Notes under the pieces: model-generated
What the model saw: only the letters and a program-made list of their open reading frames with translations
Database searches by the model: none
What the model was told of the DNA's origin: nothing
Assembly (NCBI RefSeq): GCF_002855575.1
Contig: NZ_PKRQ01000001.1
Coordinates: 310,001 to 374,000 of the forward strand
Source of the DNA: Tabrizicola sp. TH137
GTDB lineage: Bacteria > Pseudomonadota > Alphaproteobacteria > Rhodobacterales > Rhodobacteraceae
DNA: 64,000 nt
Direction: 5' to 3'
Made by a program: the position numbers and the translations under genes
Shown here: positions 8,935-45,636 of the stretch, in pieces
Position numbering within the stretch: the first letter of the stretch is position 1
Layout of the letters: each line of letters opens with the position of its first letter

Positions 8935-10323
8935 ATGACAGGGATCGCGTTTCTCCTGAACGGAACGCCTGTCCGCGTGGAAGGCGAAGGCCCCACGCGC
9001 ACACTTCTTGATTTCCTGCGCGAAACGCGCGGGCTCTGTGGCACCAAGGAAGGCTGCAACGAAGGCGATTGCGGCGCCTGCACCGTGATGGTCACGGATG
9101 ACAAAGGCAGCCGCGCGCTCAACGCCTGCATCCTCTTCCTGCCCCAGCTTCACGGCAAGGCCGTCCGCACCGTCGAAGGCCTTTCCGGCCCCAAGGGCGA
9201 GATGCACCCTGTGCAAGAGGCGATGGTCACGCATCACGGCTCCCAATGCGGCTTCTGCACCCCCGGTTTCGTCGTCTCCATGGCCGTGGCCCAGATGAAC
9301 GGACGGCGCGACCATGACGATGTGCTGGCAGGCAACCTCTGCCGCTGTACGGGTTATGCCCCGATCATCCGCGCCGCCGAAGCCGCTGCCGCGGCCCCCG
9401 TCCCCGACTGGATGCAAGCCGACCGAAAGGCCTTGGCGTCCTTCGCGGCCGATGCGGGGCAGGACGATACCGCCTTCCGCCCCAGCAATTCGGACGACCT
9501 TGCCGACTGGTATCTCGCCCATCCCGACGCCACCCTCATCGCCGGGGCCACCGACGTAGGCCTCTGGGTAACGAAACAGCTCCGCGACCTCGCGCTCGTC
9601 GCCTTCCTCAATGGCGTTTCCGACCTGCAACAGATCGAACGGCAAGGCGGGATGCTGCATGTCGGCGCCGGTGTCACCATCGCCGCCCTGCGGACGGCGG
9701 TGCAGGACCGCCTGCCCTCCTTCGCGGAACTCCTGCGCCGCTACGCCAGCGAACAGGTCCGCAACGCCGCCACCATCGGCGGCAATATCGCCAACGGCTC
9801 TCCCATCGGCGATGGCCCGCCCGCGCTGATCGCGCTTGGCGCGACCCTGCACCTGCGCCGGGGCGATGACCTGCGGTCGATCCCGCTCGAATCCTTCTTC
9901 CTCGACTACCGCAAACAGGACCGCCGCCCGGGCGAATTCGTGGCCGGGATCAGCTTCCCCGAACAGGCCCCCGGCTTGCGCTGCTACAAGATTTCCAAGC
10001 GCTTCGATCAGGACATATCCGCCGTCTGCGGCTGCTTCAACGTCACGGTCGATGCCGGCCGGATCACCGCCGCCCGCATCGCCTTCGGCGGCATGGCGGG
10101 CATCCCCAAACGCGCCGCCCATGTCGAACAGGCCCTGATCGGACAGCCGTGGTCTGAAGCGACCATCGCCGTCGCCCTTCCCGCCTTCGCACAGGATTTC
10201 ACGCCCCTCACCGACATGCGCGCCAGCGCCGCTTATCGCCTCGAAACCGCGGCCAACCTCCTCCGCCGCTATGTCCACGACCTGAACGGCAGCCCCGTCT
10301 CGGTGCTGGAGGTCGCGCCATGA
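8935..10323 (+). CDS. xdhA: Xanthine dehydrogenase small subunit XdhA (2Fe-2S and FAD)
   Basis: A 462-residue subunit that passes electrons from the molybdenum site to NAD. The plant-type [2Fe-2S] cysteines are in [18 protein letters not shown]; the second [2Fe-2S] domain has [12 protein letters not shown] and [12 protein letters not shown]-binding domain follows, with [14 protein letters not shown] and [15 protein letters not shown]. The start at 8935 ([10 protein letters not shown]) gives the normal N-terminus and has GGAGAAGG upstream; the open frame extends 50 codons further without domain support. It overlaps xdhB as ATGA. The 245-base region between dnaE and this gene shows no recognisable gene and should hold the xdh promoter. 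Confidence 0.96.
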
Positions 10324-12620
10324 CCATGGGCAAACCCCTCCCCCACGATGCCGCGCCGCTCCATGTCACCGGACAGGCGCGCTATATCGACGATATCCCC
10401 CTGCCCGGCACCGCGCTGCACCTCGCCTTCGGCCTCTCCACCATCGCGCATGGCGAGATCGCGTCGATGGACCTCTCCGCCGTCCGCGCCGCCCCCGGCG
10501 TGGTGACGGTCCTCTCCGCCGAAGACTTCGCCGAGATGCCCGATTGCAGCCCCTCGGTGCATGACGAACCGCTGCTTTCCACGGGAATGGTCCATTACCT
10601 CGGCCAGCCGATCTTCCTTGTCGCTGCCGACAGCCACCTCGCCGCCCGCCGTGCCGCGCGTCTGGCCAAGGTCACATATCGCGAACGCCCCGCCCTCCTG
10701 ACAGTGGATGACGCGCTGGCCGCCAACAGCCGCTTTGAACAGGGCCCCGTGATCTGGACGAAGGGCGACCCCGCCGCCGCCATCGCCAAGGCCCCCCACA
10801 GCATCGAAGGCACATTCGAGGTCGGCGGGCAGGAGCATTTCTACCTCGAAGGCCAGGTCGCCGCCTGCCTGCCGCAGGAAGGGGGCGATGTGACCATCCT
10901 CTCCTCCACCCAGCACCCGACCGAAATCCAGCACAAGGTCGCCCACGCCCTCCATCTGCCGATGAGTTCCGTCCGCGTCGAAGTCCGTCGCATGGGCGGC
11001 GGCTTCGGCGGCAAGGAAAGCCAGGGCAACGCGCTCGCCATCGCCTGCGCCGTGGTGGCCACCCGCACCGGGCGGCCCTGCAAGATGCGCTATGACCGCG
11101 ACGACGACATGATGATCACGGGCAAGCGGCACGATCTGCGCATCGTCTACCGCGCCGGGTTCGATGACGCGGGCCGCGTGACGGGGATTGAATTCACCCA
11201 TCTCTTCCGCTGCGGCTGGGCGCAGGACCTGTCCTTGCCCGTGGCCGACCGGGCGATGCTCCATGCCGACAACTGCTATCATCTGCCCGACATCCGCATC
11301 GAAAGCCACCGCCTGAAGACCCATACGCAAAGCGCCACCGCCTTCCGCGGCTTCGGCGGCCCGCAGGGAATGGTCGGGGTGGAACGGGTGATGGACCACA
11401 TCGCCCATACGCTGGGCAAGGACCCGCTGGCGGTGCGCCGCGCCAATTTCTACCGCGCGGCAGAGGTGGCGGGGCCGGTGCAGACCACGCCCTATCACAT
11501 GGCGGTGGAGGATTTCATCGGCCATGACCTCGTCGCCGAACTGGAACGCAGCAGCGACTTCCAAAAGCGCCGGGCCGAGATCGCCGCATGGAACGCCACA
11601 TCGCCCATCCTGAAGCGTGGCATCGCCCTGACACCGGTGAAATTCGGCATCTCCTTCACCCTGACCCACCTCAATCAGGCCGGGGCCCTGGTCCATGTCT
11701 ATCAGGACGGCTCCATCCAGTTGAACCACGGCGGCACGGAAATGGGCCAGGGCCTGTTCCAGAAGGTCGCGCAAGTCGTGGCAGGCGTCTTCGGCGTCGA
11801 TGCCGGGGCGGTGAAGATCACCGCCACCGATACGGGCAAGGTCCCCAACACCTCGGCCACCGCCGCCTCCTCCGGGTCGGACCTGAACGGGATGGCGGCC
11901 AAGGCGGCGGCCGAGACGATCCGCGCCCGCCTTGCCACCTTCCTCGCCGAAAAGCACCAGACGCAGCCGGACTCCGTCCGCTTCGCCGATGGCCTGGTCC
12001 ATGTCGCGGGCGAGGCCTATGATTTCGCCCGTGTCGCAGGCTGGGCCTATCAGGCGCGCGTCTCGCTCTCCTCAACCGGGTTCTACGCCACGCCCAAGAT
12101 CGTCTGGGACAGGATGCGCGGCACGGGCCGCCCCTTCCTCTACTTCGCCTATGGCGCGGCGGTGACCGAAGTGGTGATCGACACGCTGACGGGCGAGAAC
12201 CGCATCCTGCGGGCCGACCTACTGCATGACACCGGCACCAGCCTGAACCCAGCGCTGGATATCGGGCAGGTGGAAGGCGCCTATGTGCAGGGCGCGGGTT
12301 GGCTGACGACGGAGGAACTGGTCTGGGACGCGAAGGGGCGGCTGACCACCCACGCCCCCAGCACCTACAAGATCCCCGCCTGTTCCGACCGGCCCCGCAT
12401 CTTCAATGTCGCGCTCTGGGGCCGCGCCAACCGGGAAGAGACGGTGGGCAAGTCCAAGGCGGTGGGGGAACCCCCCTTCATGCTGGGCATCTCGGCGCTG
12501 ATGGCTTTGTCCGATGCCGTGTCAGCCTGCGGTGACGGAACCATCTACCCCGCGCTCGACGCGCCCGCCACGGCAGAGCGGGTGCTGGCAGCGGTGAAGC
12601 GGGTGCGCGGCCATGCATGA
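10320..12620 (+). CDS. xdhB: Xanthine dehydrogenase molybdopterin subunit XdhB
   Basis: A 766-residue catalytic subunit that oxidises hypoxanthine to xanthine and xanthine to urate. Molybdopterin-binding motifs include [13 protein letters not shown] and [31 protein letters not shown] and [12 protein letters not shown] follow. The catalytic glutamate lies in [12 protein letters not shown] near the C-terminus. Length is normal for the separate large subunit of bacterial two-gene XDH. Translation is coupled to xdhA by a four-base overlap. A 110-base gap with three hairpins separates it from xdhC. Substrate specificity for xanthine is inferred from the subunit architecture plus XdhC next door. 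Confidence 0.96.
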
Positions 12621-12639
12621 CATCCCGCCCCCCGACCAA

Positions 12640-12710: not shown

Positions 12711-12730
12711 CCTCCCGGCAGGGGCGCCCC

Positions 12731-13669
12731 ATGTTTGACCTGGCATCCCTCCACACCGCGGTCACCGACCACGGCCCCACCGCCCGGGTGGTGATCGCCG
12801 CCCATGACGGGTCCAGCCCGCGCGAAGTGGGGGCGTCCATGCTGGTCTGGGCCACCGGCCAGTCCGGCACCATCGGCGGCGGCGCGCTGGAGCATGAGGC
12901 GACAACCCGCGCCCGTGCCCATCTGGATGCAACCCGCCCTCTCCTGACGCGCGAGGCCCTGGGTCCCAGGCTCGGCCAATGCTGCGGCGGGGCGGTCACC
13001 CTGCTGACCGAGGTCTTCACACCCGACACCCTGCCGCAGGCAGAGGCGGGCGTGATCGCCCGTCCCATCGACGGCCGCCCGATGCCGCTGGCGGTGAAAC
13101 GCCTTCTGGCGCGGGCGCGTGGCGAAGGCGTCCTGCCCCGCCCCGCCCTGCTGCAAGGCTGGATGGTGGAACCCGTCGCACGCCCCGACCGCCACCTCTG
13201 GATCTGGGGCGCGGGCCATGTGGGCCGTGCGCTGACCGCCGTCATCGCCCCCCTGCCCGGCGTGGCGATCACCTGGATAGACATCGCCGCCGACCGTTTC
13301 CCCGAAACGGTCCCCGGCACTGTCACGGTCCGCGTCGAAGCAGACCCCGCGGGAGCCGTGACCACCGCCCCGCAGGATGCCGAACATCTGATCGTCACCT
13401 TCTCCCACGCGCTCGACCTGGACCTCTGCCACCGGCTGCTGACCCATGGCTTCGCCACCTGCGGCCTGATCGGATCGGCAACCAAATGGGCACGCTTCCG
13501 GTCGCGGCTTGCCGCCTTGGGCCATGCCCCCGGCACCATCGCCCGCATCGACAGCCCCATAGGCGACCCCGCGCTAGGCAAGCACCCGCAGGCCATCGCA
13601 CTGGGCGTCGCCACCGACTTCCTTCGCAGGAAACACCAAAACGCGTCACGACAGGAGAGCGCGGGATGA
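12731..13669 (+). CDS. xdhC: Xanthine dehydrogenase accessory protein XdhC
   Basis: A 312-residue cytosolic chaperone that, in the Rhodobacter capsulatus system, binds molybdenum cofactor and delivers the sulfurated form to XdhB. The N-terminal XdhC/CoxI domain shows ARVVIAAHDGSSPREVGASMLVW and GTIGGGALEHEA, with QCCGGAVTLLTEVF following. The C-terminal Rossmann-like XdhC_C domain includes WIWGAGHVGRAL and GLIGSATKWARFRSRL. Length is typical. It starts after a hairpin cluster that separates it from xdhB, and its stop overlaps the start of the following transporter ATPase as ATGA. Confidence 0.95.
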   Translation: MFDLASLHTAVTDHGPTARVVIAAHDGSSPREVGASMLVWATGQSGTIGGGALEHEATTRARAHLDATRPLLTREALGPRLGQCCGGAVTLLTEVFTPDTLPQAEAGVIARPIDGRPMPLAVKRLLARARGEGVLPRPALLQGWMVEPVARPDRHLWIWGAGHVGRALTAVIAPLPGVAITWIDIAADRFPETVPGTVTVRVEADPAGAVTTAPQDAEHLIVTFSHALDLDLCHRLLTHGFATCGLIGSATKWARFRSRLAALGHAPGTIARIDSPIGDPALGKHPQAIALGVATDFLRRKHQNASRQESAG

Positions 13670-15210
13670 CAGGGACAGCCACCACCGCAAGGCCCGAACT
13701 ACTGGCCGTGCAGGGCGTGACCAAGGCCTATCCGGGCGTCGTCGCCAACAGCGACGTGTCCTTTTCCATCGCCGAGGGCGAGGTTCATGCCCTTCTGGGC
13801 GAGAACGGCGCAGGCAAGTCCACGCTGGTCAAAATGATCTACGGCCTCGTAAAACCTGACAGCGGCACGATGCGGTTCCGCGGCCAGCCCTACCAGCCCG
13901 CCGAACCCCGCGCCGCCCGCGCCACGGGCGTTGCCATGGTCTTCCAGCATTTCAGCCTGTTCGAGGCGCTGAATGTCGCCGAAAATGTCGCGCTCGGCAT
14001 GGAAAACCCGCCCCCGATGCGCGAACTCGCCACCCGCATCCGCGCGGTGTCCGAAGACTATGGCCTCCCCCTCGATCCCTCCCGCATGGTGGGCGACCTC
14101 TCGGCCGGCGAACGGCAACGGGTCGAAATCATCCGCTGCCTCCTTCAGGACCCCAAACTCCTGATCATGGACGAGCCGACCAGCGTCCTCACCCCGCAGG
14201 AGGTGGAGATCCTCTTCAAGACCCTTCGCCAACTCTCGTCCGAAGGCACCGCGATCCTCTATATCAGCCACAAGCTGGAAGAAATCCGCACCCTCTGTGA
14301 CGAGGCGACGATCCTGCGGCGGGGCAAGGTCGTGGCCACCTGCACGCCACGCGACCGGTCCGCGCGCGAGATGGCCGAACTCATGGTCGGCGCGACCCTC
14401 ACGCCCCCGGCCCGCGCAACCCAGGCCAAAGGGGCCACGGCGCTGGAGGTGGCGGGCCTTTCCGTGGCCTCCCCCATCCCCTTCGGCACCAGCCTCAAGG
14501 ACATCTCCTTCCGCGTGGCAACGGGCGAGGTTCTGGGCATCGCGGGCGTCGCCGGGAACGGGCAGGACGAGCTTCTTCTCGCCTTGTCCGGTGAACTCCG
14601 GTCAGCACCCGATGCGGTCAGGATCGACGGCAAACCGATGGGGGAAGCCGGGCCGAATGCCCGCCGCGCCGCCGGATTGGTCGCCGCGCCAGAGGAACGC
14701 CTCGGCCATGCCGCTGCCCCCGACATGTCGCTGGTGGAGAATGCGCTGCTTTCCGGCGCGATCCGCAAGGGTCTGGTCAAGGGTGGCTTCATCGACTGGG
14801 CCGCCACAGGCGCCTTCGCCGAAGGGATCGTAAAGGATTTCGATGTCCGCACCCCCGGCACCCATGTCGCCGCCCGCGCCCTTTCGGGGGGCAACCTCCA
14901 GAAATTCGTGGTCGGCCGCGAACTCTCGCAATCCCCCGGCATCATCGTCATCAACCAGCCGACATGGGGCGTCGATGCCGCCGCCGCCGCCGCGATCCGG
15001 CAGGCGATCCTGGACCGTGCCGCCGCCGGTGCGGCCGTGGTCGTCATCAGCCAGGACCTCGATGAATTGCTGGAGATTGCCGACAATTTCGCCGCGCTCA
15101 ACGAAGGGCGGCTGACAAAGCCGCGCCCGGTCGAGGGGCTGACCATCGACGAGATCGGCCTGATGATGGGCGGTGCCCACGGGATGGAGGTTGCGCATCA
15201 TGCAGGCTGA
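13666..15210 (+). CDS. BMP-family (nucleoside/purine) ABC transporter ATP-binding protein, double NBD
   Basis: A 514-residue ATPase with two nucleotide-binding halves, as in NupA/YufO and simple-sugar importers. The first half has a canonical Walker A (GENGAGKST), signature LSAGERQRVE and Walker B LLIMDEPTS. The second half has a degenerate Walker A (GVAGNGQDELLLAL) and signature LSGGNLQKFVVGREL, the usual asymmetry of this group. The start at 13666 overlaps the xdhC stop and has AGGAGAGC upstream. Together with two permeases and a BMP binding protein it forms an importer. Purine nucleosides or bases are the likely substrate because of xdh coupling; this is inference. Confidence 0.9.
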   Translation: MTGTATTARPELLAVQGVTKAYPGVVANSDVSFSIAEGEVHALLGENGAGKSTLVKMIYGLVKPDSGTMRFRGQPYQPAEPRAARATGVAMVFQHFSLFEALNVAENVALGMENPPPMRELATRIRAVSEDYGLPLDPSRMVGDLSAGERQRVEIIRCLLQDPKLLIMDEPTSVLTPQEVEILFKTLRQLSSEGTAILYISHKLEEIRTLCDEATILRRGKVVATCTPRDRSAREMAELMVGATLTPPARATQAKGATALEVAGLSVASPIPFGTSLKDISFRVATGEVLGIAGVAGNGQDELLLALSGELRSAPDAVRIDGKPMGEAGPNARRAAGLVAAPEERLGHAAAPDMSLVENALLSGAIRKGLVKGGFIDWAATGAFAEGIVKDFDVRTPGTHVAARALSGGNLQKFVVGRELSQSPGIIVINQPTWGVDAAAAAAIRQAILDRAAAGAAVVVISQDLDELLEIADNFAALNEGRLTKPRPVEGLTIDEIGLMMGGAHGMEVAHHAG

Positions 15211-15236
15211 TCCGACCGTGGCGCGGGGCGGATGCC

Positions 15237-15290
15237 CCGGGGGGCTGTCTGCCCCCCGGCCCCCCCGAGGATACTTGCAGACAGAAAGTG
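15237..15290 (+). repeat. G-rich hairpin repeat, tail type 2 (copy A)
   Basis: A perfect 9-bp stem (CCGGGGGGC/GCCCCCCGG, loop TGTCT) is followed by CCCCCCGAGG and the tail ATACTTGCAGACAGAAAGTG. Five related copies occur in the window (25605, 36377, 45643, 51126 and 63118). This one separates the transporter ATPase gene from its first permease gene and ends 16 bases before the permease start. It may modulate expression across the junction, but no function is proven. Confidence 0.7.
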
Positions 15291-15306
15291 CAGGGGAAGC
15301 AAAGTC

Positions 15307-16395
15307 ATGATCCGGCTTGAGAAACGCCCCTCGCCTAGCGCCTTCTGGCAATGGGCCACCCCCATCCTCGCCGTGATCCTGACCATGATCGCCGGCGGGA
15401 TCATGTTCGCGCTTCTCGGCAAGAACCCGGTGGAGGCGATCCGCACGATCTTCTGGGACCCGCTCTTCAACGAACAGTTCGCCGCCTATTCCCGACCGCA
15501 GCTTCTGGTGAAGGCGGGGCCGCTGATCCTGATCGCCGTCGGCCTCTCGCTGGGGTTCCGGGCGGGCATCTGGAACATCGGGGCCGAAGGCCAGTACATC
15601 ATGGGCGCGATCTTCGGCGCGGGCGTGGGGCTTGCGCTCTACCCGGTCGAAACGCGCTGGGTCTTCCCGCTCATGGTGGTGGCGGGCATCTTCGGGGGCT
15701 GGCTCTGGGCGATGATCCCCGCGATCCTGAAGACGCGCTTCAACACGAATGAAATCCTCGTCTCGCTGCTCCTGGTCTATGTGGCGCAGAACATCCTCGC
15801 CTCCATGTCCATCGGCCTGCTCAGGAACCCCGAAGGCGGCGGCTTCCCCGGCAGCCGCAACCTCAGCCAGATCCCGGCCATGGCCAACCCCGAACTCATC
15901 CCCGGCACGGGGATGCACTGGGGCGTGGTCGCGGCCTTCATCGTGGTGATCGCCGCCTATATCCTGTTGCAGCGCCATATCCTCGGCTATCAGATCAAGC
16001 TGGCCGGTCAGGCCCCCAAGGCCGCCCGTTTCGCGGGGGTCAGCCCCGGTCGCCTCGTCCTTCTCTGCATGGGGCTTTCGGGCGCGCTGGCCGGGATGGC
16101 GGGTCTGTTCGAAGTGGCCGGCCCCTCGGGCCAGATCAGCATCGACTTCAACGTGGGCTATGGCTTCACCGCCATCATCGTGGCCTTCCTCGGCCGCCTG
16201 AACCCCATCGGCATCCTGCTGGCGGGTCTGCTCATGGCGCTCACCTATATCGGCGGCGAACTGGCCAGCTTCATGCTCGCCCTGCCTGCCGCCGCGATCC
16301 AGGCCTTCCAGGGGATGCTCCTGTTCTTTCTGCTGGCCGTGGATCTGCTCACCAATTACCGCGTCCGCTTCGGCTCGAAGAAGGAGATGGCCTGA
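15307..16395 (+). CDS. BMP-family ABC transporter permease, first subunit
   Basis: A 362-residue inner-membrane permease of the BPD_transp_2 (branched-chain/ribose type) superfamily. Many hydrophobic helices are visible, including FWQWATPILAVILTMIAGGI near the N-terminus. The family stretch SLGFRAGIWNIGAEGQYIMGAI is characteristic of NupP/BmpB-like permeases, and FNVGYGFTAIIVAFLGRLNPIGILLAG lies near the C-terminus (quoted in parts of one conserved region). The start at 15307 (MIRLEKRPSP) follows AGGGGAAGC; the frame is open further upstream but crosses a repeat. Its stop overlaps the second permease start as TGATG. Confidence 0.92.
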   Translation: MIRLEKRPSPSAFWQWATPILAVILTMIAGGIMFALLGKNPVEAIRTIFWDPLFNEQFAAYSRPQLLVKAGPLILIAVGLSLGFRAGIWNIGAEGQYIMGAIFGAGVGLALYPVETRWVFPLMVVAGIFGGWLWAMIPAILKTRFNTNEILVSLLLVYVAQNILASMSIGLLRNPEGGGFPGSRNLSQIPAMANPELIPGTGMHWGVVAAFIVVIAAYILLQRHILGYQIKLAGQAPKAARFAGVSPGRLVLLCMGLSGALAGMAGLFEVAGPSGQISIDFNVGYGFTAIIVAFLGRLNPIGILLAGLLMALTYIGGELASFMLALPAAAIQAFQGMLLFFLLAVDLLTNYRVRFGSKKEMA

Positions 16396-17327: not shown

Positions 17328-17341
17328 GGCACACACAACCC

Positions 17342-17360
17342 GGGGTCGGCTGCCGACCCC
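17342..17360 (+). ncRNA. Intercistronic hairpin before the BMP binding-protein gene
   Basis: GGGGTCGGC and GCCGACCCC are separated by a single base, giving an 8-bp stem with a three-base loop in RNA. It lies between the permease stop and the ribosome-binding region of the binding-protein gene. Such structures often protect or separate the mRNA of the abundant binding protein from that of the permeases. There is no T-tract, so it is not a standard terminator. It is listed as an RNA structure, not as a separate transcript. Confidence 0.5.
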
Positions 17361-17376
17361 CAACCGGGAGCAAGAA

Positions 17377-37134: not shown

Positions 37135-39102
37135 ATGATCCAGAAACCGTCTGCCGCGGTTTCGGGCGTCGATCCGCTCCCGGTAATCGACGATTCCGAA
37201 CTCGACATCGCCGATTACCTCCGGGAAGAGGCCGATCCCCCGCCCGCCGTCCCGCAAGGCTTTGCCGCCCTCACCATCGGTGCAGTGGGCGTGGTCTATG
37301 GCGATATCGGCACCTCGCCCATCTACGCCTTCCGCGAGGCGCTCCGCCCCGTCGCCGCCGATGGCCTCGCCCGGGCCGAGGTGCTGGGCCTCCTCTCCCT
37401 TCTCATCTGGACGCTCACCCTGATCGTGACGGTGAAATACGTCCTCTTTCTGCTGCGTACCGACAACCGCGGCGAAGGCGGCGTGCTCGCGCTCTACACC
37501 CTGGCCCGCCTCGCCATCGGTCGCCGCTCGCTGCCGGTGCTCGCCCTCGCCGTGGCAGGGGCGGCGCTCTTTGCGGGCGACGCGATCATCACCCCCGCCA
37601 TCTCGGTCCTCTCCGCGGTCGAAGGCGCCGGGCTCATCCTTCCCGACCTCGCAGAATGGGTCGTCCCCGTCACCCTGGGCATCATCCTTGCCCTCTTCCT
37701 CGTGCAGCGGCGCGGCACCGGGGCCATGTCGCTTGCCTTCGGGCCAGTCACCGCCCTCTGGTTTCTCACCCTCGGCGCCCTCGGGTTGTGGCACATCCTG
37801 GCCAATCCGGGCGTCCTCGCCGCCGTCTCGCCGACCCATGCGGTCTTCTTCCTGCTGGAACATCAGACCGTCGCCTTCCTCGTCCTCGGCGCGGTCTTCC
37901 TCGCCGTCACCGGGGCCGAGGCGCTCTATGCCGATCTCGGCCATTTCGGGCGCAAACCCATCATCACCGCCTGGATCGCATTGGTGATGCCCGCGCTCAT
38001 CCTCAACTACCTCGGCCAGGGCGCGCTGGTCCTGTCCGACCCCGCTGCCATCGACGATCCCTTCTTCCGCCTCGTCCCCGAAGCCTGGCTGCCCGCCCTC
38101 GTCCTGATCGCCACCGCCGCCACTGTCATCGCCGCACAGGCCGTGATATCGGGCGCCTTCTCGATGACCCGCGCCGCCGTACAACTCGGCCTGCTGCCGC
38201 GCCTGACGATCCGCCACACCTCGCATGACCAGAGCGGCCAGATCTATATCGGCGCCGTCAACTGGATGCTGCTGGTCGGGGTCATCGCTCTTGTGCTGTC
38301 CTTCGGAAGCTCCGCCGCCCTCGCCTCGGCCTATGGCATCGCGGTGACAGGGACGATGGTGGTGACCACCCTCCTCGCCATCGTCTATGTCACGCAGGCA
38401 GGCAAACTGCCCCTGCCGCTGGCCCTCTTGCTCGCCGCGCCGATCCTGCTGCTGGAACTGGCCTTCCTCGCCTCGAACCTGACCAAGCTGCATGACGGCG
38501 GCTATGTCCCGGTCCTGCTGGCCGCCCTTCTCATGCTCGCCATGCTCGCCTGGTGGCGCGGCAGCCAGCAATTGCTGGCACATACCCACCGCCAAGCCAT
38601 CGCGCTGGACGGCTTCGCCGCCTCCATGCTCAAAAGCTCTGCCCCCGTGGTTCCGGGCACCGCCTTCTTCCTGACGCCGGACCCGACTGTCGTGCCCTCG
38701 GCCCTGCTGCACAACCTCAAGCACAACCGCGTGCTGCACGACCAGAACGTCCTCGTCACGGTCGAGACGCTCCGTATCCCCGTCGCCGATCCCGAGGACC
38801 GCGCCAGCTACGAGGTCATCAACCCCCGCTTCGCCCGCCTCACCCTGCGCTTCGGCTTCATGGAAACCCCGAACGTGACCCGCGCCATGGCCCATGCCCG
38901 CAAGGCGGGGCTGAAATTCGACGTGATGGCCTCGTCCTTCTTCCTGGGCAAGCGGCGGCCCGTCGTCACCGGGCCCATCGGCCTCGACCGGCTGCTCGAC
39001 AACATCTTCGCGCTCCTGTCGCGCTTCTCCGCCGATCCGTCCGACTTCTACCACCTGCCGCGCAATCGCGTGGTGGAACTGGGCGAACGGGTGGCCGTCT
39101 GA
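37135..39102 (+). CDS. kup: Low-affinity potassium uptake protein Kup
   Basis: A 655-residue K+/H+ symporter. The N-terminal signature GAVGVVYGDIGTSPIYAFREA is characteristic of KUP/HAK, and about twelve hydrophobic helices follow (for example LSLLIWTLTLIVTVKYVLFL). The last 150 residues are soluble (TAFFLTPDPTVVPSALLHNLKHN, MASSFFLGKRRPV), as expected. The start at 37135 (MIQKPSAAVSG) was preferred; a longer in-frame ATG at 36973 would add 54 residues of low conservation. Downstream is a convergent GAPDH gene after 18 bases. There is no link with neighbours. Confidence 0.94.
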   Translation: MIQKPSAAVSGVDPLPVIDDSELDIADYLREEADPPPAVPQGFAALTIGAVGVVYGDIGTSPIYAFREALRPVAADGLARAEVLGLLSLLIWTLTLIVTVKYVLFLLRTDNRGEGGVLALYTLARLAIGRRSLPVLALAVAGAALFAGDAIITPAISVLSAVEGAGLILPDLAEWVVPVTLGIILALFLVQRRGTGAMSLAFGPVTALWFLTLGALGLWHILANPGVLAAVSPTHAVFFLLEHQTVAFLVLGAVFLAVTGAEALYADLGHFGRKPIITAWIALVMPALILNYLGQGALVLSDPAAIDDPFFRLVPEAWLPALVLIATAATVIAAQAVISGAFSMTRAAVQLGLLPRLTIRHTSHDQSGQIYIGAVNWMLLVGVIALVLSFGSSAALASAYGIAVTGTMVVTTLLAIVYVTQAGKLPLPLALLLAAPILLLELAFLASNLTKLHDGGYVPVLLAALLMLAMLAWWRGSQQLLAHTHRQAIALDGFAASMLKSSAPVVPGTAFFLTPDPTVVPSALLHNLKHNRVLHDQNVLVTVETLRIPVADPEDRASYEVINPRFARLTLRFGFMETPNVTRAMAHARKAGLKFDVMASSFFLGKRRPVVTGPIGLDRLLDNIFALLSRFSADPSDFYHLPRNRVVELGERVAV

Positions 39103-39120: not shown

Positions 39121-40095
39121 TCACCCCATCCGCCGCGCCACATCCAGCATCCGGTTGGAAAAACCCCATTCATTGTCATACCAGCCGAAGACCCGCAGCA
39201 TCCCCCCCGCCGTGACCCGCGTCTCGGGACAGGCCATCACGATGCTCTCGGGCCGCGCCCGCAGGTCGGTCGATACCAGAGGCCGGTCCGTCGCCCCGAT
39301 CACCCCACCCGCCGCCCGCAGCGCGGTGTTCACCTCCTCTGCCGTCACCGCCTTCGCCGTCATCACCGCCAGATCGACGCAAGAGACCGATGCCGTCGGC
39401 ACCCGCACCGCCGACCCTTCGATCCGCCCCGCAATCTGCGGCAGCACCACATCCAGCAACCGGCTCGCCGAGGTCGTCGTCGGCACCATCGACAAGGCCG
39501 CCGCCCGCGACCGCGGATAATCCGCCGCCGGCGCATCCACCGTAGGCTGGCTGCCGGTATAGCAATGGATCGTCGTCATCGACCCCGTCACCACGCCCCA
39601 ATGGTCGTCGATCAGCTTCGCCAGCGGCGCCAGCGCATTGGTCGTGCAGGACGCGTTCGACACGATGGCCTGATCCGCCAGCCGGTCCTCATTCGCGCCC
39701 AGCACCACGGTCAGATCGGCCGCCTTCGACGGCCCCGACACCAGCACGCGGCGCGCGCCCGCACGCAGCCCCCGCTCTGCCACCTCCCGCGCGTCGGCGC
39801 GGCCGGTGCATTCCATCACCACATCCACCCCCGTCAGAGGCAGGGCAGAGATATCCGCCGTCCGGTGCAGCGGGATCGCCCGCCCATTCACCACCAGCGC
39901 GCCGGGCTCCAGGCTGACCGTCCCCCGCCACGGGCCGAAGACGCTGTCATATTCAAAGAGATAGGCGCACATCTCGGCCGCCGCGATGTCATTGATCCCG
40001 GCAATGTCCAGCCCCGGCCAGCGGTCCGGCGACTGCAATGCCGCCCGCAGCACCGACCGCCCGATCCGCCCGAACCCGTTGATGAAGACGCGCAT
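39121..40095 (-). CDS. gap: Glyceraldehyde-3-phosphate dehydrogenase, type I
   Basis: A 324-residue NAD(P)-dependent dehydrogenase. The Rossmann motif FINGFGRIGRSVLRA opens the protein and the catalytic Cys is in VSNASCTTNALAPL. Other conserved parts are HCYTGSQPTVDAP, RSRAAALSMVPT and WYDNEWGFSNRM. It makes 1,3-bisphosphoglycerate from GAP or runs in reverse. It stands alone rather than next to pgk or tkt, so it may be a second copy; erythrose-4-phosphate dehydrogenase is a less likely alternative. The function call is solid at family level. Confidence 0.92.
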   Translation of the reverse strand: MRVFINGFGRIGRSVLRAALQSPDRWPGLDIAGINDIAAAEMCAYLFEYDSVFGPWRGTVSLEPGALVVNGRAIPLHRTADISALPLTGVDVVMECTGRADAREVAERGLRAGARRVLVSGPSKAADLTVVLGANEDRLADQAIVSNASCTTNALAPLAKLIDDHWGVVTGSMTTIHCYTGSQPTVDAPAADYPRSRAAALSMVPTTTSASRLLDVVLPQIAGRIEGSAVRVPTASVSCVDLAVMTAKAVTAEEVNTALRAAGGVIGATDRPLVSTDLRARPESIVMACPETRVTAGGMLRVFGWYDNEWGFSNRMLDVARRMG

Positions 40096-40298: not shown

Positions 40299-41261
40299 CT
40301 AGACCGAAACCTCCATCCCCAGCCCGCGCTCCCGCGCGCGCTGCACGGCCACCGCCGCCACGGCCAGATCCTGCAACCCAACGCCCGTCCCGTCGAACAG
40401 CGTGATCTCCTCGTCCGATCGCCGCCCCGCATCCGCCCCGGTCAGCACCGCCCCCAGCGGCACGATATCCCCCGCCGCCACCAGCCCCGCCGCCACCGCA
40501 TGCTGCGCCTCGCCGATGGAAACCGACTGCGCCACCTCATCGGTGAACAGCCGCGCCTTCGCGACCAGCGCCACCTCCACCTCCTGCTTGCCCTTGGTAT
40601 CGGTCCCCATGCAGGCCAGATGCGTGCCCGGCCCCACATGCGCCGCCAAAAGCGAGGCCGCAGGCGACGAGGTTATGGTGATGATCGCCTCCGCCTCCAC
40701 CATCCGCTCCAGCGACACCGCCTCGAAGGGCAGGCCCAACTCATCGGCCACCGCCGCCAGCTTGGGCAGCATCTCGGGATGCAGGTTCCAGCCGATCACC
40801 CGGTCCCAGTCCCTGACCCGCGCCGCCGCGCGCAACTGGAACCCCGCCTGATGCCCCGCCCCCACGATGCCCAGCACCCGCGCCCCCTTCCGCGCCAGCC
40901 GGTCGATGGACAGGGCCGAAGCCGCCGCCGTCCGCAGCGCCGTCAACAGGTTCCCCCCCACCATCGCCGTGGGACGGCCCGAGTCCGGGTCAAACAGATA
41001 GACCGTCGATTGGTGATTGGTGATCCCGCGCCCCGCATTGCCGGGGAAATATCCCCCTGCCTTGACGCCCAGCATCCCCCCCGCCCTGTCCAGCCCGGAC
41101 TTGAACCCGTATTGCCGCCCCTCGCCCAGCGCCTCGCGCACCACGGGGAAGTTGTAAGCCTCGCCCCGCGCCATGGCGGCAAAGGTCGCCGCCACCGCCG
41201 CATAGGCATCCTCGGGCGAAACGAGGTCGGCAATCAGCGCCTCGGAAACAATCAGCATCAT
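40299..41261 (-). CDS. bhcD: Iminosuccinate reductase BhcD (ornithine cyclodeaminase family)
   Basis: A 320-residue NAD(H)-binding enzyme of the ornithine cyclodeaminase/mu-crystallin family. The nucleotide fold is RVLGIVGAGHQAGFQLRAAA and the substrate part includes GGMLGVKAGGYFPGNAGRG. Alone it would be annotated as ornithine cyclodeaminase. In this cluster it is the fourth enzyme of the beta-hydroxyaspartate cycle, reducing iminosuccinate to L-aspartate. The ATG-ATG start at 41261 is the first in frame. It lies 67 bases after bhcC and ends against a hairpin cluster. Confidence 0.92.
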   Translation of the reverse strand: MMLIVSEALIADLVSPEDAYAAVAATFAAMARGEAYNFPVVREALGEGRQYGFKSGLDRAGGMLGVKAGGYFPGNAGRGITNHQSTVYLFDPDSGRPTAMVGGNLLTALRTAAASALSIDRLARKGARVLGIVGAGHQAGFQLRAAARVRDWDRVIGWNLHPEMLPKLAAVADELGLPFEAVSLERMVEAEAIITITSSPAASLLAAHVGPGTHLACMGTDTKGKQEVEVALVAKARLFTDEVAQSVSIGEAQHAVAAGLVAAGDIVPLGAVLTGADAGRRSDEEITLFDGTGVGLQDLAVAAVAVQRARERGLGMEVSV

Positions 41262-41328: not shown

Positions 41329-42495
41329 TCAATAGGCCTTGCCGCGCGCCGAGACAGGCCAGACCACCTCCACCTTCCCGTTCCGCACGCCGACATACCA
41401 GTCATGGACATTGCAGGTCGGGTCGCAATGCCCCGGCACCAGCCGCAGCTTGTCATTGACCTTCAGAACACCCGCCGGATCGTCGATCACCCCATGCTCG
41501 TCGCTGCATTTGATGTATTTCACATCCGTCCGCCCAAAGATCACCGGCAGCCCGCTATCCACCGACTGCGCCTTCAGCCCCGCATCGCAGATCGCCCGAT
41601 CCGCCTTGGCATGGCTCATCACGCTCGTCAGGATGAACAGCGCATTCTCCCATTCCCCCTGGTCGATCCGCTTCCCGTCCTTGTCCAGGATGCGCCCGTA
41701 ATCCGCATCCATGAAGGCGTAAGACCCGCATTGCAGCTCGTTATAGACCCCCGAATTCCCCTCGAAGTAATAGGACCCCGTGCCGCCTCCGCCGACAATG
41801 TCGCAGTCCAGCCCCTCGGCCTTCAACGCCTCCACTGCATCCCGCACCATCGCCACCGCAATGTCGATCTTCGCCTTGCGGTCCTCATAACGGTCCATAT
41901 GCTGCATCGCGCCCTGATAGGCCTGGATGCCCGCAAAGCGCAGCCCCGGCGCCGCGTCAATCGCCTTGCCCAAGGCCACCACCGCCGGCGTCGTCGTCAC
42001 CCCGCAGCGCCCCGCGCCGCAGTCGATCTCCACCAGACATTCGATCGTGGTCCCGTGTTTCACCGCCGCCGCCGACAGGTCGGCGACATTCGCCAGATCA
42101 TCCACACAGCAGATCGCCCGCGCGCCCAGCTTGGGGATGCGCGCCAGACGGTCGATCTTCGCCGGGTCGCGCACCTGATTGCTCACCAGCACATCCTTGA
42201 TGCCGCCCCGCGCAAAGACCTCCGCCTCGCTCACCTTCTGGCAGCACACCCCGACCGATCCGCCCAGCCTTTCCTGCAACAGCGCCACATCCACCGATTT
42301 GTGCATCTTCCCATGCACCCGGTGCCGCACGCCCATCTCCTGCGCGAACCGCCCCATCTTCACGATGTTGCGCTCCAGCGCATCCAGGTCCAGCACAAGG
42401 CAGGGCGTCTGGATATCCGCCTCATCCATCCCCGGCAGCGCGGGAATGTCATAGCCCACTTCCAGCCCGTCGAAATCTCCGCGTCCGTCCATCAT
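41329..42495 (-). CDS. bhcC: beta-Hydroxyaspartate aldolase BhcC
   Basis: A 388-residue PLP enzyme of the D-threonine aldolase-like, alanine-racemase fold. The segment VGYDIPALPGMDEADIQTPC opens it, and the PLP-lysine region is HRVHGKMHKSVDVALLQ. CCQKVSEAEVFARGGIKDVL and GGGGTGSYYFEG are typical. In Paracoccus it condenses glycine and glyoxylate to (2R,3S)-beta-hydroxyaspartate. The start at 42495 follows AAGGGG and lies just beyond the bhcB stop; a start at 42513 would overlap bhcB by 16 bases. The order bhcA-B-C-D is that of the described cycle. Confidence 0.92.
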   Translation of the reverse strand: MMDGRGDFDGLEVGYDIPALPGMDEADIQTPCLVLDLDALERNIVKMGRFAQEMGVRHRVHGKMHKSVDVALLQERLGGSVGVCCQKVSEAEVFARGGIKDVLVSNQVRDPAKIDRLARIPKLGARAICCVDDLANVADLSAAAVKHGTTIECLVEIDCGAGRCGVTTTPAVVALGKAIDAAPGLRFAGIQAYQGAMQHMDRYEDRKAKIDIAVAMVRDAVEALKAEGLDCDIVGGGGTGSYYFEGNSGVYNELQCGSYAFMDADYGRILDKDGKRIDQGEWENALFILTSVMSHAKADRAICDAGLKAQSVDSGLPVIFGRTDVKYIKCSDEHGVIDDPAGVLKVNDKLRLVPGHCDPTCNVHDWYVGVRNGKVEVVWPVSARGKAY

Positions 42496-42497
42496 CC

Positions 42498-43469
42498 TCA
42501 CCCCTTCATCCAAGGCAGCTTGTCCAGATCCACATTCCCGCCGGTCAGGATCACCCCCACCCGCTTGCCCCGGAACCTGTCCGGGTTCTTCAGGATCACG
42601 GCCAGCGGCACCGAACAGCTGGCCTCGATCACGATCTTCATCCGCTTCCAGTGGAGCTTCATCGCCTCGACGATTTCCTCCTCCGTCGCGGTCAGCACAT
42701 CGGTCGCGTAGGTCCGCAGGAAATGCCAGGTCAGTTCCTTCAGCGGCACCTTCAACCCGTCGGCCACCGTATCGGGCGCATCATCCGCGATGATGTGCCC
42801 CGCCCGGAAACTGCGCGCCGCATCATCGGCATTCACCGGCTCCGCCGCGAAAATCTCCACCCCCGGCGCGATGGAAGACAGCGTCAGGCAGGTCCCCGAA
42901 ATCATCCCGCCCCCACCGATGGGGGCCACCACCGCATCCAGCCCCTCCACCTGCTCCATCAATTCGCGCGAACAGGTCCCCTGTCCGGCAATCACACGCG
43001 GATCATTGTAGGGATGCACGAAATCCGCCCCCGTCCGCGCCTGCACCTCGGCGAACACCGCCTCGCGGCTGCTGGTGGAGGGCTCGCATTCCACGATCAC
43101 CCCGCCATAGCCCCGCACCGCATCCTTCTTGGCCTGCGGCGCCGTGCGCGGCATCACCACCGTGCAGGGAATGCCCCGTCGCCCCGCCGCATAGGACAGG
43201 CTCAGCGCATGGTTCCCGCTCGAATGCGTCGCCACCCCGCGCTCCAACTGATCCTCGCGCAGGCCGAAGACGGCATTGCTTGCCCCGCGCACCTTGAACG
43301 CCCCGGCCTTCTGGAAATTCTCGCATTTGAAGAACAGCTCCGCCCCCGTCAGTTCGTTCAGGAACGAAGACGTCAGCACCGGCGTCCGGTGGATATGCGG
43401 CGCGATCCGCGCATGGGCCTCCACCACGTCCTCATAGGTCGGCACCCACAAACCCTGATAATCCTTCAT
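42498..43469 (-). CDS. bhcB: beta-Hydroxyaspartate dehydratase BhcB
   Basis: A 323-residue fold-type II PLP enzyme related to threonine dehydratase/serine racemase. The PLP lysine lies in FQKAGAFKVRGASNAVFG and the phosphate-binding loop in APIGGGGMISGTCL. HSSGNHALSLSYAAG is the usual substrate loop. In the cycle it removes water from beta-hydroxyaspartate to give iminosuccinate. It follows bhcA after nine bases and its stop lies two bases before the bhcC start, so the genes are one transcript. Confidence 0.93.
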   Translation of the reverse strand: MKDYQGLWVPTYEDVVEAHARIAPHIHRTPVLTSSFLNELTGAELFFKCENFQKAGAFKVRGASNAVFGLREDQLERGVATHSSGNHALSLSYAAGRRGIPCTVVMPRTAPQAKKDAVRGYGGVIVECEPSTSSREAVFAEVQARTGADFVHPYNDPRVIAGQGTCSRELMEQVEGLDAVVAPIGGGGMISGTCLTLSSIAPGVEIFAAEPVNADDAARSFRAGHIIADDAPDTVADGLKVPLKELTWHFLRTYATDVLTATEEEIVEAMKLHWKRMKIVIEASCSVPLAVILKNPDRFRGKRVGVILTGGNVDLDKLPWMKG

Positions 43470-43478
43470 CGCCTCCCC

Positions 43479-44669
43479 TCACTCTGCCGCCATCGCCATC
43501 GGCACGGCCGACCCGCGATAGAACTCCGCCGCCGCCGCCACGCCCGATCCCAACCGGATATCCCATCCCAGATCGGCCATGCACATCTCCGCCGTGGCCA
43601 GCCCGCCCAGCACCATCACATCGGTCAGCATTCCCAGATGCCCGATGCGGAACACCTTGCCCGCCACCTCGCCTAAGCCCACGCCAAAGGCCACGCCATA
43701 TTTCTCCGCCGCCAGCTTCACGAGGTCCGTGCCATTGCACCCGGCAGGCACGACCACCGCCGTCACCGTCTCGGAATACAGATCCGCCGAGGCCGCGCAG
43801 GGCCGCATCCCCCAGGCCGCCACCGCGCGCCGCACCCCTTCGGCCAGCCGCGCATGGCGGGCATAGACGGCCTCCAGCCCCTCCTCCTCCAGCATCTCGA
43901 TGGATTTCGCGAGACCCGCGATCAGCCCCACCGCGGGCGTATAGGGATACCCACCCCCGGCATAGCTCCGCAGCATGTCGCGGAAATCGAAAAAGGTCCG
44001 CGGCAGCCGCGCCCCCTCCATCGCCGCCAGCGCCTTGTCGGAAACCCCCAGGATTGCCAGCCCCGCCGGCAGCATGAATCCCTTCTGGCTCCCCGCCACC
44101 GCGATGTCCACGCCCCAACCGGCCATGTCGAAAGGCATCGACCCGATCGACGACACGCCATCCACGAACAGCATCGCCCCATGCCCCGCCACATCCATAG
44201 CGCGGCGGATGCCTGCGATATCCGAACGCACCCCCGTCGCCGTCTCGTTATGCGTCGCCAGCACCGCCTTGATCCGCCCCGCCCTGTCGGCCTTCAACGC
44301 CGCCTCGATGGCCGCCACGGGCGCACCCTGCCCCCAGGGCGTCTCGATGATCTCCACCTCCAGCCCATGCCGCTGGCACAGGTCGATCCAGCGATGGCTG
44401 AACATCCCGAACCGCGCCGCCAGAACGGTATCGCCCGGCGACAGCGTGTTGGTGATCGCCGCCTCCCATCCCCCCGTCCCGGTGGATGGCAGGATGATCA
44501 CCTCGCCCCCCGCCATGCCCAGCACCCGCCGCACCCCCGCCACCGCAGGCCGGAACAGCTTGCCAAAGGCCGCCGACCGGTGATCCAGCGTCGGCATGTC
44601 ACAGGCCTTGCGGATCGCCTCGGGAATGTTCGTCGGACCGGGAATGAAGACGGGATTCTGAAAGGACAT
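43479..44669 (-). CDS. bhcA: Aspartate:glyoxylate aminotransferase BhcA
   Basis: A 396-residue class V aminotransferase. It starts FQNPVFIPGPTNIPEAIRKA, typical of serine/alanine-glyoxylate transaminases, and the PLP lysine is in VAGSQKGFMLPAG. HNETATGVRSDI and FVDGVSSIGSMPFDMAGWG are also present. In the BHA cycle it makes glycine and oxaloacetate from glyoxylate and aspartate. The start at 44669 follows AGGTGG; an upstream ATG at 44726 would put the N-terminus in the operator region. It is the first gene of bhcABCD and divergent from bhcR. Confidence 0.93.
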   Translation of the reverse strand: MSFQNPVFIPGPTNIPEAIRKACDMPTLDHRSAAFGKLFRPAVAGVRRVLGMAGGEVIILPSTGTGGWEAAITNTLSPGDTVLAARFGMFSHRWIDLCQRHGLEVEIIETPWGQGAPVAAIEAALKADRAGRIKAVLATHNETATGVRSDIAGIRRAMDVAGHGAMLFVDGVSSIGSMPFDMAGWGVDIAVAGSQKGFMLPAGLAILGVSDKALAAMEGARLPRTFFDFRDMLRSYAGGGYPYTPAVGLIAGLAKSIEMLEEEGLEAVYARHARLAEGVRRAVAAWGMRPCAASADLYSETVTAVVVPAGCNGTDLVKLAAEKYGVAFGVGLGEVAGKVFRIGHLGMLTDVMVLGGLATAEMCMADLGWDIRLGSGVAAAAEFYRGSAVPMAMAAE

Positions 44670-44728
44670 GATGGCCACCTCGCTTGGGCATGGCATGACC
44701 CTACGCCCCGGCCACCCGCAGCACAATT

Positions 44729-44759
44729 TTTTCGAAAAGATTTTTCATATATCGAAAAA
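44729..44759. promoter_or_regulatory. Two inverted repeats between bhcA and bhcR, candidate BhcR operator
   Basis: A perfect 10-bp palindrome TTTTCGAAAA (44729-44738) and, two bases on, TTTTTC-N7-GAAAAA (44741-44759) lie in the 151-base divergent region. This A/T-rich stretch stands out from the GC-rich surroundings. IclR regulators bind such palindromes, and BhcR in Paracoccus is known to bind the bhc promoter and release it with glyoxylate. Direct contact at this site is inferred. Confidence 0.6.
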
Positions 44760-44820
44760 CCCGCTATCCTTTCAAGAAATCAGGGACTTGCGATTTTTCA
44801 CCCGAACCGGATGCCTCCAG

Positions 44821-45636
44821 ATGCCCACAAAACCCCGCGGCCGCCCCAAGGCCTTCCACGACAAGACCGACCAGAACACCGTGCAGGCGCTCGACCGCGC
44901 GCTCGGGCTCCTCTCCACCCTCGCCGCCCATCCGGGCCTCACGCTTTCGGAACTCGCCGATACCTCCGGCCAGGCCGTCGCCACCGTCTATCGCGCGCTG
45001 GTCACCCTGCAATCGCACGGCATGGTGGAATCCGAAGACCCTGCCCAGACCTGGCATATCGGCCCCGGCGCCTTCCGCATCGGCTCTGCCTTCCTGCGCC
45101 GCACAAAGGTCGTGGAACGCGCCCGCGCCGCGATGGATGCGCTCATGCGCGACACGGGTGAAACCGCCAATCTCGGCGTCGAAGTCGGCGACGAAGTCCT
45201 CTTCCTCTCCCAGGTGGAAACCCATCAGGCGATCCGCGCCTTCTTCCCGCCCGGCACCATCGCCCCCATGCACGTCTCCGGCATCGGCAAGGCCCTTCTG
45301 GCCTGGTATCCAACGGAAAAGGTGCAAGGCATCCTCGCCCGCAAGGGCCTTCAACGCTTCACCACCCTCACCCATACCTCCGAAACCGCCCTCCTGCGCG
45401 ATCTCGCCCGCATCCGCGACCGCGGCTTCGCCATCGACGATCAGGAACGCGCCGAAGGCATGCGCTGCGTCGCCGCCCCCATCTTCAACGCCCATGGCGA
45501 ACCCGTCGCGGGTCTCTCGGTCAGCGGCCCGGCCTTCCGCATGGGCCTCTCCGATGCCACCCGCCTCGGCACCCTCGTCCGCGCCGCAGCCGACAAGGTG
45601 ACAGAGGCGACGGGCGGCCAGCAACCCGCGCCCTAA
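44821..45636 (+). CDS. bhcR: IclR-family regulator BhcR
   Basis: A 271-residue IclR regulator. The N-terminal winged helix has TVQALDRALGLLSTLAAHPG and SGQAVATVYRALVTLQSHG. The C-terminal effector domain includes VHISGIGKALLAWYPT-like sequence (here PMHVSGIGKALLAWYP) and IDDQERAEGMRCVAAPIFNA. By position and type it is BhcR, the glyoxylate-responsive regulator of the BHA cycle. The start at 44821 (MPTKPRGRPKAFHDK) was preferred over upstream in-frame ATGs that lie in the operator. It is divergent from bhcA. Confidence 0.92.
   Translation: MPTKPRGRPKAFHDKTDQNTVQALDRALGLLSTLAAHPGLTLSELADTSGQAVATVYRALVTLQSHGMVESEDPAQTWHIGPGAFRIGSAFLRRTKVVERARAAMDALMRDTGETANLGVEVGDEVLFLSQVETHQAIRAFFPPGTIAPMHVSGIGKALLAWYPTEKVQGILARKGLQRFTTLTHTSETALLRDLARIRDRGFAIDDQERAEGMRCVAAPIFNAHGEPVAGLSVSGPAFRMGLSDATRLGTLVRAAADKVTEATGGQQPAP

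Follow-up and report, generated by a model that had tools for sequence, protein, structure and literature searches.

The closest described counterparts of the locus reported here, a block of purine-catabolic and beta-hydroxyaspartate-cycle (bhc) genes in a 64,000-nucleotide stretch of the Tabrizicola sp. TH137 genome (the whole stretch analyzed, hereafter the window), are two gene clusters and one pathway. In Escherichia coli, the allantoin cluster (allS-allA-allR-gcl-hyi-glxR-allW-allB-ybbY-glxK-allECD) places the genes that lead from ureides to glyoxylate beside net glyoxylate assimilation, by glyoxylate carboligase (Gcl) and the glycerate pathway, and beside an IclR-family glyoxylate-sensing regulator. 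In Paracoccus denitrificans, the bhcABCD-bhcR cluster encodes the beta-hydroxyaspartate cycle, for which the literature, as far as the accessible parts of it go, treats glycolate, glyoxylate and ethylene glycol as substrates. The available portions of one report (PMC11323563) state that P. denitrificans requires bhc for growth on glycolate, that the biochemistry of BhcR is consistent with glyoxylate as its effector, that BhcR is phylogenetically sister to IclR and AllR, that a potential palindromic site lies upstream of bhcA, and that purines and allantoin are further sources of glyoxylate. This general remark on the sources of glyoxylate is the only link between purines and the cycle met in the available portions of PMC11323563, PMC11166783, PMC7574528, PMC12214560 and PMC10878069, and xanthine is not mentioned in the main text of those Paracoccus papers that were searched for the term, likewise available in part; an earlier description is possible, e.g., in the 2019 Nature paper on the cycle. 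The third counterpart is the bacterial urate/allantoin pathway (PuuD, UraH, UraD, PuuE, AllE and AllA).

The window block resembles each of these systems and differs from each. It shares with the P. denitrificans cluster the same five genes, their order, the divergent bhcR and the type of box in the bhcR-bhcA gap, whereas the window cluster adjoins purine genes; P. denitrificans itself, as described below, carries a xanthine permease gene, an 8-oxoguanine deaminase gene and uraH behind bhcD. It contains the full set of the urate/allantoin pathway plus xdhABC, without a separate AllC-type enzyme in its purine cluster. Relative to the E. coli cluster, the arrangement of ureide-to-glyoxylate genes, net glyoxylate assimilation and an IclR-family regulator is alike; however, the window block encodes the beta-hydroxyaspartate cycle in place of glyoxylate carboligase, lacks an AllC gene and has no BhcR-like site before its purine genes. 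That is, the window block is the idea of the E. coli allantoin cluster with a different assimilation pathway. Our results show that the neighborhood of bhc and purine genes is real and more than chance, and we consider it likely, with good confidence, that the block is one metabolic unit, leading from purines to oxaloacetate, in two transcriptional parts.

One body of evidence for this reading is the distance between the two gene sets in related genomes. We searched 199 whole genomes of the family (G000-G198, about one per genus) for BhcC, PuuE and AllA, and found PuuE in 192 and AllA in 188 of them; co-occurrence by presence or absence was therefore dropped as a test, since genes this close to universal provide no discrimination, and distance was chosen instead. 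BhcC-profile matches were obtained in 117 genomes, of which 12 with only 176-204-bit matches were set aside, leaving 105 genomes with 109 places at 362 bits or more (BhcC exceeded the curated cut-off of 690 in 83 of the 199). AllA was missing from four of the 105, and 101 genomes thus had both genes. Controls were run in 79 of the 101 (78 genera), assemblies of up to 100 contigs picked by hand, with G135 (100 contigs) left out inadvertently. In these 79 genomes the 10 kb on either side of BhcC contain AllA in 29 cases, AllE in 27 (75 possess AllE), and one or the other in 33, as opposed to 0/79 for RecA and 0/77 for the best GlcD-like gene per genome, none of which reached the curated cut-off of its model. 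Random placement in 4-Mb genomes would give about 0.4 cases within 10 kb against the 29 seen, a strong enrichment and the opposite of the outcome by which the earlier note on this DNA would have been refuted; among all 101 genomes with both genes the count is 33. Within 50 kb, the distance over which the note had proposed to count co-occurrence across the family, AllA was found in 31/79 genomes, RecA in 3/79 and the GlcD-like gene in 2/77. Only 3 of the 79 genomes show an AllA-BhcC distance of 10-100 kb, so that the distances are bimodal.

The genes that recur around bhcC tell the same story. Up to 20 kb was fetched around each of the 109 BhcC places, and bhcA, B, C and D are all present in 80 of them; purine genes lie near 34 of these 80 complete loci (33 with core purine genes within 12 kb, plus L143 with xdh, a permease and guaD). 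When open reading frames of at least 120 residues were clustered over the 109 loci, the families found besides the bhc genes were allE (32 loci), allA (32), puuE (30), gap (29), puuD (23), the PF00860 permease (22), LysR (20) and uraH (13), and next to these an unnamed family (10) and one of ABC ATPases (9); the families in more than 10 loci are thus the purine set and gap only. Among named loci, those 80 with a BhcC nearest to that of the window (the best 80 of 593 confirmed) include 34 that have a core purine gene in their flanks. The earlier note had worried that kup and gap, as unrelated genes separating the two parts in the window, might make the proximity accidental, a worry that is not borne out. 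A kup match is present in L005 and absent from L006, L007 and the same-genus genome G088 (L146), and hence kup looks like a late local insertion outside the conserved set, whereas a gap-type gene is found no more than 4 kb from bhcC in 24/80 complete loci (and in 3/22 loci with a lone bhcC, described below); that of the window is on the bhcD strand, downstream of bhcD.

The pairing takes many forms, with 25 gene orders among 40 linked loci. The commonest order is allE> <bhcR bhcA> B> C> D> (gap>) <permease <allA <puuE-uraD uraH> <lysR puuD>, and in 16 of the 40 the bhc genes have a full-length allE on one side and allA on the other (additionally in L125, where allE is cut by the contig end); the order of the window, with allE retained between puuE and allA, is among the rarer ones. 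In G002, G058 and G165, allE alone stands beside bhcR, with allA 168 kb away, on another contig and 101 kb away, respectively. On a tree of BhcC (128 sequences of one short protein, quick search, LG+G4), linkage changes 31 times over all 128 sequences (34.2 times on average after shuffling, with 58 of 500 shuffles at or below 31) and 24 times over 93 loci (27.8 on average after shuffling, with 40 of 500 at or below 24). The 93 are the 80 complete loci of the family and 13 loci from a class-wide search; of these 13, L230 also comes from the family, and by tblastn one bhc gene is missing from each of L232, L237 and L241. A single inherited bhc-purine block was therefore rejected, given this scatter; repeated gain and repeated loss are not separable by this analysis.

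The block also occurs on plasmids. On plasmids of Leisingera sp. M658 and L. caerulea S185, allE-bhcR-bhcABCD-permease-allA-puuE-uraH-LysR-puuD-LysR-xdhAB form one block, with the molybdate importer genes modABC adjoining and, in M658, xdhC as well, while Alloyangia pacifica carries guaD, a further permease and xdhC on the allE side. A plasmid of Sulfitobacter sp. OXR-159 retains the Leisingera order, but allE and bhcA are set apart by an interval (L254, 620-8219) that holds a transposon along with other genes; in it are a Tn3-family transposase, an IS1380-type transposase and a shortened IclR gene, which gives the impression of a disrupted bhcR. A plasmid of Pseudosulfitobacter pseudonitzschiae, of diatom origin, carries xdhABC-permease-guaD-allE-bhcR-bhcABCD, and the stretch viewed contains none of allA, puuE and puuD. 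By organism name, Pseudosulfitobacter has as many plasmid records with BhcC as with AllE (44/44), and so do Leisingera (17/17), Sulfitobacter (3/3) and Ruegeria (3/3). In another order, plasmid pMRAD01 of Methylobacterium radiotolerans carries bhcR-bhcABCD, an 8-oxoguanine deaminase gene on the opposite strand, a permease, a molybdopterin hydroxylase, a LysR gene, separate uraD and puuE, and puuD; the different set of purine genes argues for a separate assembly of this island. The class-wide search was positive in 27 of 389 genomes (28 BhcC matches, of which 20 were fetched at full flank; the other eight were the window, places already in the set and four distant ones in G331, G424, G479 and G486), and yielded L235, in which xdhBA, uraH, puuE, allE and allA adjoin bhcDCBA.

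P. denitrificans, the model organism of the cycle, offers a further form of the arrangement. In strain HAMBI_2443 (NZ_CP141053.1, a record without annotated genes in this stretch), the xanthine permease gene pbuX (TIGR03173, 510.8 bits, cut-off 414.15) begins 41 bp behind bhcD on the same strand, and its stop overlaps the start of an 8-oxoguanine deaminase gene (697.8 bits, cut-off 532); 16 bp further lies uraH (124.3 bits, cut-off 87.45), and then a strong terminator-like hairpin and puuD. No terminator-like site was found in the bhcD-pbuX gap and two weak ones lie within the permease frame, in a scan that returned 8 sites against 4.3 in shuffled sequence. It is plausible from this spacing that bhcABCD and the purine genes are read through as an operon. 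The stretch from bhcC to puuD is kept over the full query in seven records, all of Paracoccus and the query's own record included, and Paracoccus sp. SMMA_5 is annotated with the matching arrangement.

In the window, gene calling followed by NCBIfam and Pfam profile scans against curated cut-offs identified every gene that the earlier note had listed (xdhABC, the BMP-type importer, puuD, uraH, the puuE-uraD fusion, allE, allA, bhcDCBA and bhcR; Table 1). Its description of these genes as lying side by side at 8935-45636 stands in part: the start moves to 8854, and about 11 kb of other genes separate xdhABC and the importer (8854-18474) from puuD (29925), so that the compact part is 29925-45636. 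The purine and bhc operons are convergent, and bhcABCD are contiguous at 40299-44678 with intergenic gaps of 9, 2 and 67 bp, all four proteins scoring above their equivalog cut-offs. AllA falls slightly below its NCBIfam equivalog cut-off and well above that of Pfam PF04115. The importer is nearest to models of a putative B6 importer, all four subunits being below cut-off; from its position we infer a purine or nucleoside as substrate.

The enzyme steps of purine breakdown and of BhcA-BhcD are established knowledge, and with XdhAB, PuuD, UraH, UraD, PuuE, AllE and AllA all encoded, the route in the window would run as follows. Xanthine would be converted to urate by XdhABC, urate to allantoate via PuuD, UraH, UraD and PuuE, and allantoate to urea and glyoxylate by AllE (perhaps including the allantoicase step) and AllA. 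The glyoxylate would then enter BhcA-BhcD, where two glyoxylate give one oxaloacetate with no carbon lost. Since only two of the five ring carbons reach glyoxylate, purines would be chiefly a nitrogen source, and the cycle would both remove the reactive by-product and save carbon. Because the pairing recurs in many related bacteria, the beta-hydroxyaspartate cycle is probably a natural end-point of purine use. We infer that carbon flows along this route, that the coupling is under selection and that glyoxylate from purines would induce bhc through BhcR; the proposal of the earlier note that AllA-made glyoxylate is the inducer agrees with the BhcR biochemistry in PMC11323563.

The earlier note had listed allantoate amidohydrolase as absent from the window. 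It is right that the purine cluster contains no separate AllC-type enzyme; however, the window AllE also passes NF040771, the model for the bifunctional allantoicase/(S)-ureidoglycine aminohydrolase, and the seemingly absent step may therefore be supplied by AllE itself (NCBI gives this bifunctional product name to AllE in the named records above). The sole protein of the hydantoinase/carbamoylase family found in the genome (TIGR01879) was considered as a candidate AllC: allantoate amidohydrolase is its best subfamily, but we read it as a pyrimidine enzyme because its neighbors are PreA and dihydropyrimidinase. As for other sinks of glyoxylate, gcl was found in 0/199 family genomes, including the window's own (E 1e-200, up to six candidates scored per genome; the E. 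coli control was positive).

It is possible that regulation is the main point of the arrangement, i.e., that BhcR, a relative of IclR and AllR, controls purine genes and bhc on glyoxylate, as AllR of E. coli does for allantoin and gcl genes. With zero or one mismatch, the dyad TGAAA-N5-TTTCA is present in 118 out of 140 distinct bhcR-bhcA gaps, as against a single one of 140 shuffled gaps; it resembles the known IclR/AllR operators. A matrix built from these 140 gaps was scanned over 3.48 Mb of loci, training gaps included, and gave sites of at least 12 bits upstream of bhcA in 154 loci (160 bhcA genes) and upstream of lysR in 1/37. In the window there is a single strong site, in the bhcR-bhcA gap (Table 1), the next best non-overlapping one scoring 8.0 bits. 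Upstream of 65 allA, 57 allE and 36 puuD genes there is no BhcR-like site of at least 12 bits, the lysR-puuD gaps have 0/29, and no such site precedes the window purine genes, the uraH-puuE gap of the window scoring -8.4 bits. The uraH-puuE gaps of other loci do exceed every control run: 14/52 reach 12 bits or more, where 60 first-order Markov runs average 3.3 and peak at 10, and 14/51 do so where 40 shuffles average 1.05 and peak at 4, but the matches inspected are mostly good on one half-site and overlap another element common across genera. We do not claim control of uraH-puuE by BhcR, since the window has no site there and the matches elsewhere seem to overlap this separate shared element. 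The grouping of BhcR with IclR and AllR, as given in the available part of PMC11323563, and the P. denitrificans arrangement, with pbuX, the deaminase gene and uraH behind bhcD and no terminator-like site at the bhcD-pbuX junction, speak for regulatory coupling as well. Taken together, a shared BhcR operator for both parts of the block is not supported in the window but may exist elsewhere, and we regard regulation by BhcR as the main point of the arrangement as rather unlikely.

Alternatively, the two gene sets might share a residence without metabolic coupling, traveling together as accessory plasmid loci that serve for dissolved organic matter, with their order kept by linkage. The presence of BhcC in 118 plasmid records and the scatter of linkage on the BhcC tree (24 changes over 93 loci, with 40 of 500 shuffles as low) speak for this. 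However, the frequent neighbors are purine genes and gap and not a mixed set, bhc is nested between allE and allA in 16/40 linked loci, allE alone stays beside bhcR in G002, G058 and G165 despite a remote allA, and the spacing in Paracoccus is operon-like; we consider shared residence improbable. That bhc serves glycolate only, with the purine genes as bystanders, draws on the requirement for bhc on glycolate in P. denitrificans (stated in the available part of PMC11323563), yet the best GlcD-like gene is within 10 kb of bhcC in none of 77 genomes and within 50 kb in two (RecA in 3/79, AllA in 31/79), and gcl, the other known net route for glyoxylate, was found in none of the 199 genomes; we regard this reading as very improbable. 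Chance proximity, to which the intervening kup of the window would lend itself, faces 29/79 cases against about 0.4 expected and zero for two control genes, and kup is probably a local insertion; the probability of chance is negligible.

Several observations weigh against the reading of a purine-to-oxaloacetate unit. No purine gene was found within about 10 kb in 46 of the 80 complete bhc loci (some cut by contig ends), AllA and BhcC are on separate contigs in 31 of the 79 genomes, related genera in these counts are not independent draws, and the near-universal presence of PuuE and AllA is uninformative in itself. Purine genes often travel without bhc, as AllE is found in 308 plasmid records against 118 for BhcC, the surplus being largely rhizobial; conversely, Aminobacter pMET3 has bhc and no purine genes, and in Limimaricola, a counter-example, bhc has NCS1 transporters and a gene of the racemase family as neighbors. 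When genes of the Limimaricola, Aminobacter and Methylobacterium loci (urtA excluded) were sought in the 109 loci, none turned up in the 47 complete loci without core purine genes, L143 being one of the 47. Of nine loci from other families with all four bhc genes, core purine genes are present in one (L235), and L227 has an NCS2-type permease. Further, purines are not the only substrate of the cycle, given that bhc is required for glycolate growth in P. denitrificans (available part of PMC11323563), and the purine genes of the family lack the BhcR-like sites sought upstream of allA, allE and puuD. Despite these points, the purine-to-oxaloacetate unit is the reading we favor, and the claim of the earlier note that the purine and bhc parts belong together is borne out by the 10-kb counts against both controls, by the many gene orders in which the pairing recurs and by the plasmids.

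We also suggest, tentatively, a wider reading in which purine catabolism is a native and widespread job of the cycle besides glycolate. The cycle would have been joined with purine genes more than once (in several orders in the Rhodobacterales, operon-like in Paracoccus, with a different set in Methylobacterium) and would move on plasmids as a purine-to-oxaloacetate island, and lone BhcC-type aldolases encoded directly behind allE, in genomes that lack the other cycle genes, might use purine-derived glyoxylate in a shortened route. If the coupling holds true, dissolved purines and urate would be a second natural input to the beta-hydroxyaspartate cycle, and algae-associated bacteria could draw purine nitrogen without waste of, or harm from, glyoxylate. 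It would also provide a simple reason why purine genes and bhc are found together on plasmids, and the native role of the cycle could be tested in P. denitrificans, a standard laboratory organism in which bhc runs on into purine genes.

Regarding the lone BhcC genes, 22 of the 109 places have no bhcA, B or D within 6 kb, and no more than 4 of the 22 score above the BhcC cut-off. Their genomes have no BhcB above cut-off anywhere in 21 of 22 cases, the exception, G178, also having a complete cluster. The lone genes form two groups on the BhcC tree (2 changes against a shuffled mean of 20.2). Six of them are near purine genes, with allE directly before bhcC in L085, L086, L087, L088 and L110 and bhcC beside allA in L089; in G063, G082, G170 and G171, the bhcC match comes 18, 21, 42 and 160 bp, respectively, after the allE match. 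As a guess, a lone BhcC might condense glyoxylate with glycine.

Table 1. Features of the window and the profile scores (in bits) on which their names are based
Feature	Position	Strand	Evidence or remark
Window	G000:C11:310001-374000		Tabrizicola sp. TH137, 64,000 nucleotides
xdhA, xanthine dehydrogenase small subunit	8854..10323	+	TIGR02963 590.5, cut-off 467
xdhB, xanthine dehydrogenase molybdopterin subunit	10320..12620	+	TIGR02965 1235.6, cut-off 849.5
xdhC, xanthine dehydrogenase accessory protein	12731..13669	+	TIGR02964 251.9, cut-off 161.6
Four-gene BMP-type ABC importer: ATPase, two permeases, binding protein	13708..18474	+	NF047927-NF047930 nearest, below cut-off
puuD, urate hydroxylase	29925..31181	-	PF06181 460.2
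LysR-type regulator, recurs beside uraH/puuD	31296..32228	+	Family in 20/109 bhcC loci
224-residue protein between LysR gene and uraH	32225-32899		No Pfam or NCBIfam match
Two small genes resembling a VapBC/FitAB-type toxin-antitoxin pair	32956-33599		Our reading; no NCBIfam match
uraH, hydroxyisourate hydrolase	33584..33943	-	TIGR02962 132.8, cut-off 87.45
puuE-uraD fusion (allantoinase + OHCU decarboxylase)	34098..35513	+	TIGR03212 509.2, cut-off 424.6; TIGR03164 201.2, cut-off 96.25
allE, (S)-ureidoglycine aminohydrolase, possibly also allantoicase	35510..36352	+	NF008373 501.1, cut-off 445; NF040771 463.9, cut-off 350
allA, ureidoglycolate lyase (glyoxylate-forming)	36454..36927	+	NF002952 243.9, cut-off 260; PF04115 178.7, cut-off 23
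kup, potassium transporter	37135..39102	+	Probably a local insertion, outside conserved set
gap-type dehydrogenase	39121..40095	-	TIGR01534 340.3, below GAPDH-I cut-off 367.2
bhcD, iminosuccinate reductase	40299..41261	-	NF045643 522.1, cut-off 500
bhcC, 3-hydroxyaspartate aldolase	41329..42495	-	NF045642 760.9, cut-off 690
bhcB, beta-hydroxyaspartate dehydratase	42498..43469	-	NF045641 595.0, cut-off 550
bhcA, aspartate-glyoxylate aminotransferase	43479..44678	-	NF045640 704.2, cut-off 650
BhcR-box-like dyad, TGAAA-N5-TTTCA type	44728..44752	.	36.5, matrix from bhcR-bhcA gaps
bhcR, IclR-family regulator	44821..45636	+	NF045644 409.7, cut-off 350

A few further observations concern the surroundings of these genes. 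The stretch between the xdh part and the puuD part (18625-25471) contains genes for an SQR-like flavoprotein (18625), a GH25 protein (22046) and a DMGDH/sarcosine-oxidase-like protein (22973). The 224-residue protein beside uraH has matches in the related loci L005-L007, and the toxin-antitoxin-like pair has matches in L005 and none in L006 and L007. By eye, an element like CTTTC...TTTTTTGA(A/T)AAA recurs in the uraH-puuE gaps of many loci (33944-34097 in the window) and is perhaps the operator of the neighboring LysR regulator. A second complete bhc cluster of G048 (L123, G048:C1:4111343-4131243) has a partial allE (profile positions 97-248) nearby. Finally, the Tabrizicola genome encodes a second BhcA-like aminotransferase away from the bhc cluster (G000:C11:553065-554210; L103, 8066-9211), which is 54% identical to BhcA and scores 592.8 bits against the cut-off of 650.

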